DNA of 64,000 nucleotides from Meiothermus sp. (GTDB lineage Bacteria; Deinococcota; Deinococci; Deinococcales; Thermaceae): positions 745,803 through 809,802 of the forward strand of contig NZ_BPIJ01000002.1 of NCBI RefSeq assembly GCF_026004055.1. Direction: 5' to 3'. Within the stretch, counting starts at the first letter, position 1, and each line of letters opens with the position of its first letter. Both the position numbers and the translations under genes were made by a program. The notes below the pieces were generated by a model. It was not told where the DNA came from and made no database searches. It was given only the letters and a program-made list of their open reading frames with translations. This document shows, in pieces, positions 36,012 to 40,614 of this stretch.

Positions 36012-36449
36012 TCAAACCTCCTGCACCCCACCCACCGCGAAGCGTTGCAGCCAGGGTTTGCTTGGCGCCAGCAGGGCGGCGGGAACCACCTGAACGGGTA
36101 CCTTAGCGCTAGCCACAATGCTCTGGGCCGCGGGGCCTAGCCCCTCTGGGGCCTGCTGGGCGCTGTCATGGCAGCCAATCACGATCAAGTCGGCGTGGGT
36201 TTGCTGGGCAATCTCGGCCACCACCGCGCCGATGGTCTGGCTATGGGGCTCCACCACCAGCACCGTCGGTTGACGGCGGGCCCCCTGCACCATTTGGGCG
36301 AAGGTTTCGAAAACCGAACCCTCGGTGTTCTCGAGCACATGTACCAACGTCACCTTACAGCCCAGCCAGCGGGAAAGATGGAGAGCATGCTGGGCGGCGG
36401 CCAGGCTGCCCGGTCCCACCCCCACAGGCACCAAGATGTGACGAAACAC
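36012..36449 (-). CDS. Universal stress protein (single UspA domain)
   Basis: The 145-residue protein begins FRHILVPVGVGPGSLAAAQH and has the UspA nucleotide-binding fold, with DLIVIGCHD in place of the usual GTHG and a shortened G-loop (APEGLGPAAQSIVASAKVPV), so ATP binding is uncertain. GGAGGT sits just upstream of GTG 36449; the open frame begins at GTG 36455, which would lie within 2 bp of the ribosome site. Its promoter region carries the TGGTAAY direct repeat (36503-36520) proposed as a BTAD-regulator site. Confidence 0.8.
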   Translation of the reverse strand: MFRHILVPVGVGPGSLAAAQHALHLSRWLGCKVTLVHVLENTEGSVFETFAQMVQGARRQPTVLVVEPHSQTIGAVVAEIAQQTHADLIVIGCHDSAQQAPEGLGPAAQSIVASAKVPVQVVPAALLAPSKPWLQRFAVGGVQEV

Positions 36450-36502
36450 AAGCACCTCCGGTTCGGGGCAACCCCTCCTGAGTTCAAGGCTGCACCCAGG
36501 GC

Positions 36503-36520
36503 ATTACCAAGGTGTTACCA
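36503..36520 (-). promoter_or_regulatory. TGGTAAY direct repeat upstream of uspA (site 1)
   Basis: On the minus strand TGGTAAC (36514-36520) and TGGTAAT (36503-36509) are separated by 4 bp, an 11-bp period. The same arrangement precedes the genes at 37529 and 38712. The site lies between the divergent UspA and BTAD genes. Confidence 0.65.
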
Positions 36521-36596
36521 CCCCCCCTGGCCTCGAGCAGCCCACCTACTCCAAAGGGAGGATGAAGCCGTAATGGTTTTGTAACAAAATTAAGCC

Positions 36597-37412
36597 ATGA
36601 AAAGGATGTCGTACCCAAAACAGGCTTCCCCTGTGCTCCAGGTACGCACCTTGGGCCAGGTGGAGGTTCTGGTTGCAGGCCGTCCTGCTGTCTGGCACGC
36701 TCACACTGCCGAGGAACTTTTCTTCTACCTGCTCTCCTATCCCGAGGGCAAGAGCAAGGCGGAAATCCTCGAGACCCTGTGGGGCCTCGACCCCGGCCCC
36801 GTGGCCAACAACCGCTTCCGGGTTACGCTTTTTCGCCTTCGCACCGCCTTGCAAAACCCCGAGGCCGTTCAGGAAGACCACGGGCGGTATCGTTTGCACG
36901 AAAGCGTTTTGCAAAGCGCGGATTTGTACAGTTTTTATCGGGCCTTAAGCGAAGGTTACCACGCCAGCAGCGAAGCTATGCGCCTGGAAAGCTTCCTCAA
37001 GGCTATTGCGCTGTACCAGGGCGACTACCTGCCGGGCTTCTCGACCAACTGGGTTATGCAGGCCCGCGAGGAGCACAAAACGGCCTATGTGCAAGCGCTG
37101 CTCGAGGTAGCCCTTATCCACTACGACCGCTCAGACTGGAAGAATACCGCCGCCTACCTGCAACAGGCCTTGCATAAAGACCCCTACCTGGGTGAGCACT
37201 ACCACCAACGGCTGATGTGGTGCCTGGCTGCGGCCGGGGATCGCTACGGGGCCATCGAGCACTACCGTCGCTTTGTGAAGTTCCTGCGCGAGGAGTTGGG
37301 CGATACCCCCATGCCCGAGACCCAGGCGCTGGCCGAGCACATCAAGCAAAACCAGCCCCTGCTGTCCTACCCCGACTGGCATAACTTGAACCTGCACGGC
37401 CATGCGGCCTAG
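36597..37412 (+). CDS. BTAD-domain (SARP-like) transcriptional regulator
   Basis: The 271-residue protein has an N-terminal winged-helix DNA-binding domain (about 13-100: LQVRTLGQVEVLVAGRPAVW, then KAEILETLWGLDPGPVANNR and FRVTLFRLRTALQ) and a C-terminal bacterial transcriptional activation domain (about 108-255) of TPR-like helices, with WVMQAREEHKTAYVQALLE and GDRYGAIEHYRRFVKFLREE. SARP-type regulators activate by binding direct repeats next to the -35 region. It lies inside a cluster of stress genes with such repeats. No ATPase or sensor domain is attached, so the signal is unknown. Confidence 0.85.
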   Translation: MKRMSYPKQASPVLQVRTLGQVEVLVAGRPAVWHAHTAEELFFYLLSYPEGKSKAEILETLWGLDPGPVANNRFRVTLFRLRTALQNPEAVQEDHGRYRLHESVLQSADLYSFYRALSEGYHASSEAMRLESFLKAIALYQGDYLPGFSTNWVMQAREEHKTAYVQALLEVALIHYDRSDWKNTAAYLQQALHKDPYLGEHYHQRLMWCLAAAGDRYGAIEHYRRFVKFLREELGDTPMPETQALAEHIKQNQPLLSYPDWHNLNLHGHAA

Positions 37413-37430
37413 AGTGGCGCCCTATCCAAA

Positions 37431-37448
37431 TGGTAATGCCCAGGTAAT
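37431..37448 (+). promoter_or_regulatory. TGGTAAT/AGGTAAT direct repeat (site 2)
   Basis: TGGTAAT (37431-37437) and AGGTAAT (37442-37448) are 4 bp apart with an 11-bp period, about 80 bp upstream of the eRF1-like gene. CTTGAAT follows 10 bp downstream, as CTTGAAC does 14 bp after site 1. Confidence 0.65.
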
Positions 37449-37528
37449 TGGCATCCCCTTGAATCGAGCTAGGCAGCGGCAGCAAACCAACACCTGCCAC
37501 CTAACAAACCAAGTTCAAGGAGGTTGTC

Positions 37529-38665
37529 ATGCTGACCCAAGAAAGCATCCGCTATATCCGCGAGTTTGTGGCACCACGGGTTGTACCGGTGTTGTCGCTG
37601 TATCTGGACGTGAACCCGGCCAACCCCGACAACCAGGGCAAGGCCTATCTGCTGCGGGCCCGCGCGGCCCTAGAGGCTGCCCAGACCCCGCCAGAGATTG
37701 GCCAGAAAGTTTTGGAGGCGCTCGAGCGCAACCTACCCCAGGCCCGCAGCCGGGTCGTCTTTGCGGCCGAGGGGTGGATGGAAATCTATGACCTGCAGGT
37801 GGATTTGCCTCTGGTACAGGGCGTCGAAGCCCGCTGGGGTGAGCCCTACCTGACCCCCATTCTCTATGTGCTGGACGAGTACGACCGGGTAGGGGTGGTC
37901 TACCTCGACAGCGAGAAGTGGCGGATGTTTGAGGTGTACCTGGGGGAGATAGAAGAACTGCCCGGGGCTTTTAGGGCGGTGCCCACCCAGGAGTGGAACC
38001 AACTCACCCGGGATAGCCAGGGACGCCGCTACTCGCAGGGGGGCATCCACCGGGCCGCAGCCGATACCGACCGCTTCGAGCGTCGGTTGGATGTTTGGAC
38101 GCACCGCTTCTACAAACGCCTGGCCGGCCTGCTCGAGCAGACCATCCAAGAACGCAGCATCCAGCGGCTGGTGTTGATGGGGCCCAAGGCCGAGGCGCAG
38201 ATGTTCAAAGAACTGCTCCCCCGCCGGTTGCGCGAGCGGGTTATTGCCACCTTGCCCTCCCTGCCTACCCCGCGCGCCCAGGCCGGTGAAGTGCTGAAGC
38301 TCGTGCAAGAGGTACTGGAACCCATCGAGCGTGAACGGGAAAACCGTCTCTTGGACGAGCTGGCCGAACGGGGGGTGGGCGGGCTGGATCAGACCCTGGA
38401 GCTCTTGCAACAGGGCGGGCTGCACCTGCTGGTAGCCCCCTGGAACCCTCAGGGCACGGTCTACCGCGCCCCCGATGGTTGGGTGGGCAGCAGCATGGAG
38501 GGTGCAGTAGCGCATGGGGCCGGGCGCATCGAGGAGGTCGAGCTTAAGCAGGTTCTGCCCGAGCTGGCCGAGGCCTATGGAACCCGGCTCGAGTTTGTGC
38601 GGGGGCCGGCCGAAGAACGTCTAAAACAGACTTTTGGCGGTCTGGCCGGGCTGCCCCGTTGGTAA
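37529..38665 (+). CDS. Bacterial eRF1-like protein (baeRF/VLRF1-type release-factor fold)
   Basis: The 378-residue protein has the three-part eRF1/Pelota-like architecture of the baeRF families: an N-terminal part with VPVLSLYLDVNPANPDNQGK, a central domain with VYLDSEKWRMFEVYLGEIEE and HRFYKRLAGLLEQTI, and a C-terminal domain with AVAHGAGRIEEVE. Such proteins are proposed to act on stalled ribosomes, but none is well characterised, so function is inferred. The start follows AAGGAGG at ATG 37529. A TGGTAAT repeat precedes it, and the partners are two Usp genes and hsp20, consistent with translation rescue in stress. Confidence 0.75.
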   Translation: MLTQESIRYIREFVAPRVVPVLSLYLDVNPANPDNQGKAYLLRARAALEAAQTPPEIGQKVLEALERNLPQARSRVVFAAEGWMEIYDLQVDLPLVQGVEARWGEPYLTPILYVLDEYDRVGVVYLDSEKWRMFEVYLGEIEELPGAFRAVPTQEWNQLTRDSQGRRYSQGGIHRAAADTDRFERRLDVWTHRFYKRLAGLLEQTIQERSIQRLVLMGPKAEAQMFKELLPRRLRERVIATLPSLPTPRAQAGEVLKLVQEVLEPIERERENRLLDELAERGVGGLDQTLELLQQGGLHLLVAPWNPQGTVYRAPDGWVGSSMEGAVAHGAGRIEEVELKQVLPELAEAYGTRLEFVRGPAEERLKQTFGGLAGLPRW

Positions 38666-38677
38666 TGCCTTGGTAAC
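38660..38677 (+). promoter_or_regulatory. TGGTAAT/TGGTAAC direct repeat (site 3)
   Basis: TGGTAAT (38660-38666) and TGGTAAC (38671-38677), 4 bp apart with an 11-bp period, overlap the stop codon of the preceding gene and lie 35 bp before the tandem UspA start at 38712. Confidence 0.65.
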
Positions 38678-38711
38678 GGGGGTGCGTTACCTTCAGAGCA
38701 AGGAGGGTGCC

Positions 38712-39647
38712 ATGTTCCGCAAAATCCTGATCGCAGTGGATGAGTCCTCTTGCAGTGAGCGGGCAGGACGGGTGGGTTTGGCCTTTGCCCAAAAACTAGG
38801 TGCGGCGGTGGTGGTCACCCACGTGCTCAAAACGCCCCCGGCCTACTGGGGTTTGGCTGCTCCCGACATGATGCGGCACGCCCAGGAAATTCTGGCCCCC
38901 TGGACAGAGCTGGGGCGGCAGATGGGGCTCGAGCTCCACGCCGAACCCACGCAACACGACGACGTTGCAGAGGGCATTGTTTTCCTGGCCAACCGCAGCC
39001 ACTGTGACCTGATTGTAATGGGCACCCACGGGCGCGGGGGGCTGGGGCGGGTGCTGTTGGGTAGTGTGGCCGAGCGGGTCAGCCGCCTGTCCAAAGTACC
39101 GGTGATGCTGGTGCGGGGCGATGGGAAGGTGGAGCCCAGCACGGGCCTCTTCAAACGCATCCTGGCCCCGGTAGATGGCAGCGAGGCGGGCCGTCCGGCT
39201 TTCGAGCTGGCCGACCAACTGGCAGTTCAGCTCGAGGCCGAGCTGCAGATTCTGCACGTGGTGCCCCCACTGCCCACCCCGGTAGCAGGCCCCTACAGCG
39301 GTAGTATGACCCCCTTCAACTGGGGAGAGATCCTCCGCGCCATGGAAGAACAAGGCGAGGTCATCCTGGCCAATGCCCAGAAGCAGGCCCGGGCCCCAAG
39401 GGTAAAAACCGTCCTGCTCAAGGCCCAGACCCGGCGGGAAGCGGACGTGATCGTGGACTTTGCCCGCGATAGCCAGGCCGATCTGATTGTGATGGGCACC
39501 CACGGGCGCACCGGTCTGGAACGCCTGTTGCTGGGTAGCGTGGCCGAGGGGGTTGTCCACCAAGCGCCGGTGCCGGTGCTGCTGGTTCGTGCTGTGCCGG
39601 CGCCACCCGATGTGAGCCAAGCTGCGGCGGAAACGGCCCATGCTTGA
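38712..39647 (+). CDS. Tandem universal stress protein (two UspA domains)
   Basis: The 311-residue protein has two UspA domains: FRKILIAVDESSCSERAGR to VPVMLVR, and FKRILAPVDGSEAGRPAFEL to VPVLLVR. Both retain the ATP-binding loop, GTHGRGGLGRVLLGSVAERV and GTHGRTGLERLLLGSVAEGV, so this paralogue probably binds ATP, unlike the single-domain one at 36012. The start is ATG 38712 with AAGGAGG; the open frame extends upstream only through the repeat site. It sits between the eRF1-like gene and hsp20. Confidence 0.92.
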   Translation: MFRKILIAVDESSCSERAGRVGLAFAQKLGAAVVVTHVLKTPPAYWGLAAPDMMRHAQEILAPWTELGRQMGLELHAEPTQHDDVAEGIVFLANRSHCDLIVMGTHGRGGLGRVLLGSVAERVSRLSKVPVMLVRGDGKVEPSTGLFKRILAPVDGSEAGRPAFELADQLAVQLEAELQILHVVPPLPTPVAGPYSGSMTPFNWGEILRAMEEQGEVILANAQKQARAPRVKTVLLKAQTRREADVIVDFARDSQADLIVMGTHGRTGLERLLLGSVAEGVVHQAPVPVLLVRAVPAPPDVSQAAAETAHA

Positions 39648-39762: not shown

Positions 39763-40212
39763 ATGTTAGCCCGTTTCGACCCTTGGCGTGAAATGGACAC
39801 CATGCGTAGGGAAATCGAGCGCTTGTTCGACGAAAGCCTGTTCCGTCGTGAGTTCCCGTTCCTCGATAAAGAGGTGGCGGCTATGCCGCTCGACATCTAC
39901 GAAGAGGGCAACAACATCGTGGTGAAAGCCTCGATTCCCGGCCTCAAACCCGAAGACATCAAGATCGAGGTGCGCGGCGATATCCTGCGGATCCATGGCG
40001 AAGCCAAAAAGGAGGAAGAGAAGAAAGAACGCAACTACCACCTGCGTGAGCACCGCTACACCCGCTTTGAGCGCTCGGTAGTGCTGCCCAGCGAGGTACA
40101 GACCGATAAGGCCGAGGCGGTGTTCGAAAACGGTGTGCTGACCCTGACCCTGCCCAAGAGCGAGGTCGCCCAGGCCAAAGCCATCCCCATCAAGACTCCT
40201 GCCAAGGTCTGA
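39763..40212 (+). CDS. Hsp20 family small heat-shock protein
   Basis: The 149-residue chaperone starts LARFDPWREMDTMRREIERL, has the alpha-crystallin core (about 43-135: MPLDIYEEGNNIVVKASIPG to GVLTLTLPK) and the C-terminal anchoring motif as AIPIKTPAKV, in which the IPI triplet matches the I-x-I motif. It holds unfolding proteins. GAAAGGAGAG precedes the ATG. It follows the tandem UspA by 115 bp and has no TGGTAAY site, so it may be read through or separately controlled. Confidence 0.95.
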   Translation: MLARFDPWREMDTMRREIERLFDESLFRREFPFLDKEVAAMPLDIYEEGNNIVVKASIPGLKPEDIKIEVRGDILRIHGEAKKEEEKKERNYHLREHRYTRFERSVVLPSEVQTDKAEAVFENGVLTLTLPKSEVAQAKAIPIKTPAKV

Positions 40213-40260: not shown

Positions 40261-40614
40261 ATGGCTCAAAAAATTGATCTGTTGATGGGACTGGTGTTTG
40301 CCCTGCTGGCGGTACTGGGGCTGTTCTTTGCTCCCAGCGGTCTGATTCTGGGCTTCATCCCCAGCACCACCGGCCTGGCTCTGGTCTACCTGATCACTGC
40401 GGTGGTGCTCCTTTACGGCTACTTCACCAACGACCAAATGGCCCATATGGTCGCTGCCGTGATCGGGGTGGTCTATGCTGCGCTGGCCATCATCGGGTTC
40501 TTTAGCAGCAGCTTCCTGGGCCTGCCCACGGGCGGCTGGAACATCGTGGTGAACCTGATTGCCGCGGTGGTGCTGATCTACGACTGGCTAGGCACACCCA
40601 GAACTGCCTCTTGA
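40261..40614 (+). CDS. Four-helix membrane protein, DUF4383-like
   Basis: The 117-residue protein has four hydrophobic segments (about 5-27, 37-56, 63-84, 92-111) linked by short loops with GFIPSTTGLALVYLI. This resembles the DUF4383 family, of unknown function. A near-perfect ribosome site AGAAAGGAGGT precedes ATG 40261, 48 bp after hsp20, so the two are probably cotranscribed and the protein highly produced. A terminator follows. Confidence 0.8.
   Translation: MAQKIDLLMGLVFALLAVLGLFFAPSGLILGFIPSTTGLALVYLITAVVLLYGYFTNDQMAHMVAAVIGVVYAALAIIGFFSSSFLGLPTGGWNIVVNLIAAVVLIYDWLGTPRTAS

Follow-up and report, generated by a model that had tools for sequence, protein, structure and literature searches.

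The question raised by this locus is whether a small regulator gene lying among stress genes controls them through direct repeats placed in front of them, and how far such control would extend in the genome. SARP-type activators are best known from Streptomyces antibiotic genes. The window, by which we mean the whole stretch of 64,000 nucleotides of Meiothermus sp. that was analysed, belongs to a genome of 3.18 Mb in 3 contigs. A sequence-only reading of it had proposed that a BTAD-domain regulator governs three promoters, those of a UspA gene, an eRF1-like gene and a tandem UspA gene, each preceded at short distance by a pair of heptamers. The genes concerned are the following, in window coordinates:

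36012..36455, minus strand: uspA-type universal stress protein, 147 aa (PF00582)
36597..37412, plus strand: small SARP-type regulator (winged helix + BTAD), 271 aa (PF03704)
37529..38665, plus strand: baeRF family 10 protein, 378 aa (PF18854, E 6e-35)
38712..39647, plus strand: tandem-domain universal stress protein (usp2), 311 aa (PF00582 twice)
39763..40212, plus strand: HSP20 chaperone, downstream of usp2
40261..40614, plus strand: DUF4383-like membrane protein, after hsp20 (Pfam match below cut-off)

The domain searches bear out the naming of the regulator and of both stress proteins: PF00582 is found in each Usp, twice in the tandem one, and the BTAD domain of the regulator matches PF03704 with 66 bits against a cut-off of 22 (E 5e-18). 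The profile of the regulator family aligns with the SARP of AfsR over both domains (positions 4-245, E 1.6e-13), and a Pfam domain search found no receiver domain in it. The N-terminal OmpR-type winged helix is present in a divergent form, with weaker support from sequence and fold than the BTAD half, as its match to Pfam Trans_reg_C falls below the cut-off. A Foldseek search with an AlphaFold model of the regulator, built from four sequences (pLDDT 64), returned AfsR and EmbR as top matches; at this low confidence the model is taken as support only. Arg92 of AfsR, a base-contacting residue (PMC10936776), aligns with Arg80 of the regulator, invariant in 16 of 16 homologues, and AfsR Thr88 aligns with Val76. 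The closest named relatives, at 77-79% identity, come from M. hypogaeus and two Meiothermus MAGs.

The gene that had been read as eRF1-like does encode a member of baeRF family 10, but the ribosome-rescue-like role suggested for it gives way to a different one: judged by its sequence, the protein is a homologue of the Balon/MSMEG_1130-type ribosome hibernation factors. It matches PDB 8v9j with E 2e-5 over residues 59-378, and scores 67 bits against NCBIfam NF052288, below the equivalog cut-off of 480, and is thus a distant member of the Balon/MSMEG_1130 family. Further downstream, hsp20 is probably transcribed in the unit that begins in front of usp2; in G005, G009 and G016, where usp2 is missing, the equivalent repeat is the closest site before hsp20. 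The homologue of the DUF4383-like membrane protein in G003 has a site of its own. In G018 the frame of the tandem usp is truncated to 155 aa (L115:4016-4462), compared with a copy of 313 aa in G007.

All three heptamer pairs are present, with 0, 1 and 0 mismatches, at 47, 80 and 34 bp from the respective start codons, in agreement with the short distances that had been proposed. Each is followed by a putative −10 element:

36503..36520, minus strand: operator 1, before uspA, TGGTAAC-acct-TGGTAAT, 0 mismatches
36487..36492, minus strand: putative −10 CAGCCT, 10 bp past operator 1
37431..37448, plus strand: operator 2, before baeRF, TGGTAAT-gccc-AGGTAAT, 1 mismatch
37459..37464, plus strand: putative −10 TTGAAT, 10 bp past operator 2
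38660..38677, plus strand: operator 3, before the tandem usp, TGGTAAT-gcct-TGGTAAC, 0 mismatches
38688..38693, plus strand: putative −10 TACCTT, 10 bp past operator 3

The one mismatch, in operator 2, is in heptamer 2, which begins with A instead of T. Across the aligned promoters, the heptamer columns have a pairwise identity of 0.90-0.92 versus 0.29-0.34 in the upstream flank (0.92 versus 0.34 for operator 1), and the scored −10 positions an identity of 1.0. The Trp-stop codons (TGG TAA) at the end of baeRF lie within operator 3 and form its heptamer 1 (38660-38666). In G011 and G015, which do not have the regulator, the Trp codon of baeRF is kept, but the stop codon is TAG or TGA; the operator may therefore constrain the choice of stop codon. 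A third, weaker TGG-like unit (TGGGTGC) follows operator 1 with the same 11-bp period (window 36492-36520), and its TGG is retained in most orthologues, making a three-unit operator possible at this promoter.

With up to 3 mismatches allowed, 11 matches are found in the window (all those other than the three operators have 3 mismatches), versus a mean of 6.3 in shuffled sequences, 7 of 100 of which reach 11. Because this count is only slightly above that of the shuffles, the window by itself leaves the matter undecided, and it is the whole genome that decides. The exact motif, which we define as TGGTAAYN5GGTAAY with the reversed pattern as control, occurs 6 times in the genome, 3 of them in the window, and the reversed pattern 0 times; the three extra sites precede the genes of a PEP synthase, of a dienelactone-hydrolase-like protein and of an ABC transporter, the last of which comes after a second baeRF gene. 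Across 50 Thermaceae genomes there are 46 exact matches versus 0 reversed, with none in the small genomes of genus g4, presumably Thermus; in the Thermus genomes searched, neither the motif nor a close homologue of the regulator was found. On the strength of the reversed-pattern controls a chance origin of the repeats was rejected. A YAnnnT element lies exactly 10 bp past heptamer 2 in 34 of the 46 exact sites, which were picked without regard to any −10, and at any other offset in 0-3 of them. With at most 1 mismatch, the extended motif gives 153 matches versus 13 reversed in 14 genomes with the regulator, and 16 versus 4 reversed in 7 genomes without it.

Some matches were set aside. Two in G003 (C7) and one in G002 with no −10 look spurious, and an identical 33-base match (GGTAATTTCCCGGTAACGCGGCTTCACCAGGCT; L198, L199), present in several genomes including ones that do not have the regulator, is probably a conserved gene region and not an operator.

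The sequence-only reading implied that the repeat should accompany the orthologues of these genes in related genomes. This is what we find where the regulator is present: in Meiothermus genomes that have it, the site is kept before uspA (10 of 10), baeRF (10 of 10) and usp2 (6 of 6), and at operator 2 both heptamer 2 and the −10 TTGAAT are kept in 10 of 10 (as TTCAAT in G019). In genomes without the regulator, the box is absent from the baeRF promoters of G008, G011, G015, G001 and G002 and from the usp2 promoters of G008, G011 and G015. The PEP synthase paralogues provide a control within the same genomes, with the site in front of ppsA1 in 10 of 10 cases and of ppsA2 in 0 of 16 (L220-L245). 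The archease-rtcB operon carries the site in 9 of 9 readable promoters, and was not found in G008, G011, G015 and G021, none of which has the regulator. Over the genus, the exact motif occurs in 12 of 12 Meiothermus genomes with an intact regulator versus 1 of 6 without it, with a Fisher p of 7e-4 that overstates independence, because the genomes are related. The sole exception in this comparison is G017, whose assembly is 84% complete; its archease site is present and the regulator was undetected. In the PpsA2 gene tree G008, G011 and G015 group with the genome of the window, and G021 with G009, G016 and G017, and these placements suggest at least two separate absences of the regulator.

Regulator-bearing Meiothermus mostly have two PEP synthases, the box being confined to the copy that accompanies the regulator. 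In G010 the regulator is frameshifted into two frames (L124:4095-4861), rtcB is interrupted by a stop codon, and the uspA box is degraded while other boxes persist, as though the genome were shedding the module.

Outside the Thermaceae, boxes are located within about 1 kb of regulator homologues in G052, G053, G055 and G056, and adjoin Usp genes in G052, G055 and G056. A single contig of G055, which belongs to a different family of the order, holds seven boxes, five of them exact, within 12 kb (L216:1600-13547).

A regulon is therefore supported, as had been proposed, with the correction that the predicted set is far larger than three promoters. The families that come first after boxes in several genomes are Usp, baeRF, HSP20, PEP synthase and archease followed by RtcB; further ones are P-type ATPases, a phosphoribosyltransferase, a dienelactone-hydrolase-like protein, an ABC transporter and a VanW-like protein, together with a CapA-like protein followed by a P-type ATPase, ferredoxin, ferritin, and subunits II and I of a ba3-type oxidase. 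An M50-CBS protease, a CoA-binding protein and a flavodoxin are led by a box in one case each, and in G003 a hemerythrin comes after a box-led phosphoribosyltransferase. The ba3 oxidase, ferredoxin, ferritin and hemerythrin are predicted targets in some species only. By its gene content the predicted regulon appears to have a low-oxygen or dormancy character. A search of the open-licence literature turned up no account of a SARP/BTAD regulon in Meiothermus, and nothing direct on one shared low-oxygen regulon.

The promoter of the regulator itself contains a weak, site-like arrangement:

36557..36590, plus strand: regulator's own promoter, site-like, weak
36557-36563, plus strand: weak half-site GGAGGAT
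36568-36574, plus strand: half-site CCGTAAT
36579-36585, plus strand: extra half TTGTAAC, overlapping the −10-like element
36585-36590, plus strand: −10-like CAAAAT, 6 bp before the regulator ATG

In most orthologues this promoter reads CGGTAAT, 10 bp, CAAAAT, 6 bp, ATG, with CCGTAAT in the source genome and one extra base ahead of the ATG in G016. The pattern is kept in 9 of 10 orthologues (it is lost in G009), and is not significant when judged by shuffles alone. Autoregulation from a leaderless mRNA is thus possible; the pattern is suggestive only.

These results have to be weighed against other explanations of the repeats. That they are non-regulatory, and due to chance, to codon or stop-codon context or to the common ancestry of adjacent genes, finds some footing in the overlap of operator 3 with the Trp-stop codons of baeRF, the more so as a paralogous baeRF locus has the same end. 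However, the same motif with a fixed −10 offset is common to unrelated genes on different contigs, with a reversed control of 0; ppsA1 and ppsA2 differ in carrying it; and the box is lost in genomes without the regulator even though baeRF and usp2 are retained there, all of which makes this explanation very hard to credit. Less far-fetched, though still improbable, is the idea that the regulator represses the box promoters instead of activating them. A repressor would suit a box that overlaps the core promoter, and a half-site that overlaps the −10 in the promoter of the regulator; the constant spacing to a poor −10 with no −35 is instead what is expected of an activator that stands in for the −35 contact, in the manner of AfsR, and where the regulator is missing, archease-rtcB and ppsA1 are absent as well instead of being released from control.

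The identity of the protein that reads the repeats is the point on which we retain the most doubt. OmpR/PhoB-type response regulators bind 11-bp direct repeats near the −10, and for this reason geometry alone cannot name the protein. Besides this likeness to boxes of the PhoB type, some nine other BTAD-like matches occur in the source genome and the promoter of the small BTAD gene is itself site-like, so that this gene could be a mere member of a regulon run by a different regulator of similar fold, either of the OmpR/PhoB type or a larger BTAD protein. Against this, the motif tracks the presence of the small BTAD gene (although genomes without it still yield other, weaker BTAD candidates), the sites cluster round small BTAD homologues in other families of the order, and in G010 the uspA site decayed alongside the frameshift in the regulator. 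We regard a different regulator as unlikely, if the least unlikely of the three alternatives.

We thus favor, with considerable confidence, the explanation that the window is the hub of a conserved, SARP-controlled dormancy regulon. Computed directly were the motif with its spacing and conservation, the list of targets, and the way in which the motif co-occurs and is linked with the regulator; geometry, co-occurrence and linkage to the regulator gene fit the SARP-type regulon of the sequence-only reading, in which binding by the regulator is presumed. In the mechanism that we infer, two regulator protomers would bind side by side to two TGGTAAY half-sites spaced 11 bp. The half-site pair would occupy the −35 position, the second of the two beginning 17 bp ahead of a weak −10 (YAnnnT), and the bound activator would recruit RNA polymerase to otherwise poor promoters with no −35, as AfsR does at afsS; autoregulation would be part of the same scheme. 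As the regulator has no sensor domain, the trigger can only be guessed from the genes it would control, and may be low oxygen or growth arrest.

To our knowledge, SARPs have been studied almost solely as actinomycete antibiotic switches. Here one SARP appears to run a genome-wide stress/dormancy regulon in an early-branching thermophilic lineage, through a predicted operator that is directly testable, and one predicted switch would govern both archease-RtcB RNA repair and a hibernation factor of the Balon type. Thermus, where we found neither the regulator nor the motif, would be a clean host in which to rebuild the system. SARPs as a kind are known; what appears to be new is a small one in Deinococcota with an operator of its own and a regulon of the dormancy type.

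The system can be compared with several known ones. Among M. tuberculosis genes, we take Rv2623 and Rv2624c to be Usp, Rv2625c to be an M50 protease and Rv2630 and Rv2631 to be archease/RtcB-like. The SARP domain of AfsR of Streptomyces coelicolor (PDB 8hvr, 8jke, 8k60; PMC10936776) resembles the full-length winged helix + BTAD of the regulator; two AfsR protomers occupy the 11-bp repeats between −40 and −19 and take over from the −35 contact in holding sigma region 4 (PMC10936776). AfsR promoters likewise have 11-bp direct repeats over the −35/−10 spacer and a suboptimal YAnnnT −10 (CACTGT in afsS), and the 17 bp from heptamer start to −10 start are also shared, assuming that the TGGTAAY register begins where the AfsR repeat begins; the gap to the −10 is stated as 8 bp from the 3′ repeat, a value that depends on how the repeat is delimited (PMC10936776). 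Unlike AfsR, the regulator described here has no NOD/TPR part, and would read a different half-site (TGGTAAY) and serve a dispersed stress/dormancy regulon in a Deinococcota host instead of antibiotic control.

Oxygen-linked BTAD regulators are already known. EmbR of Mycobacterium tuberculosis (BTAD + FHA), which shares the SARP fold by Foldseek match, is reported to influence hypoxia genes, hspX and devS among them (PMC9239209); it differs in its FHA domain and kinase control, and a common operator is not known. DnrS of Thermus thermophilus (GAF + BTAD), from the same bacterial family, is also a BTAD activator with oxygen-linked control, but it is large, has a GAF domain, and controls denitrification genes from a mobile nitrate-respiration element (PMC5748679). 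With Balon, MSMEG_1130 and Rv2629 (PMC10901736) the window shares a baeRF homologous in sequence and a stress-gene neighbourhood with Hsp20 and RtcB; Rv2629 is hypoxia-induced (PMC10901736), while the window baeRF is below the NCBIfam equivalog cut-off and its ribosome binding is predicted from homology.

A parallel in gene content is the DosR (DevR) regulon of M. tuberculosis, whose list includes ctpF, fdxA, hspX, bfrB and Rv2623-Rv2630 (PMC4082495): Usp, the Balon homologue Rv2629, hspX, ctpF, the ferredoxin fdxA and bfrB all have counterparts here at the level of gene kind. DosR, however, belongs to the response regulators of the NarL/LuxR type, works with heme-sensor kinases and has a palindrome as its box, whereas the regulator of the window is a sensor-less SARP (BTAD) linked to a direct-repeat box. 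The comparison suggests that a gene set of the DosR type is a movable unit that different regulators have taken over. We lean slightly towards the view that, in Meiothermus and its relatives, a low-oxygen/dormancy programme like that of DosR has a sensor-less small SARP as its master switch. One conserved group of functions (ribosome hibernation, RNA repair, Usp, HSP20, ba3 oxidase, ferredoxin, ferritin and cation ATPase) would then have unrelated regulators across phyla.
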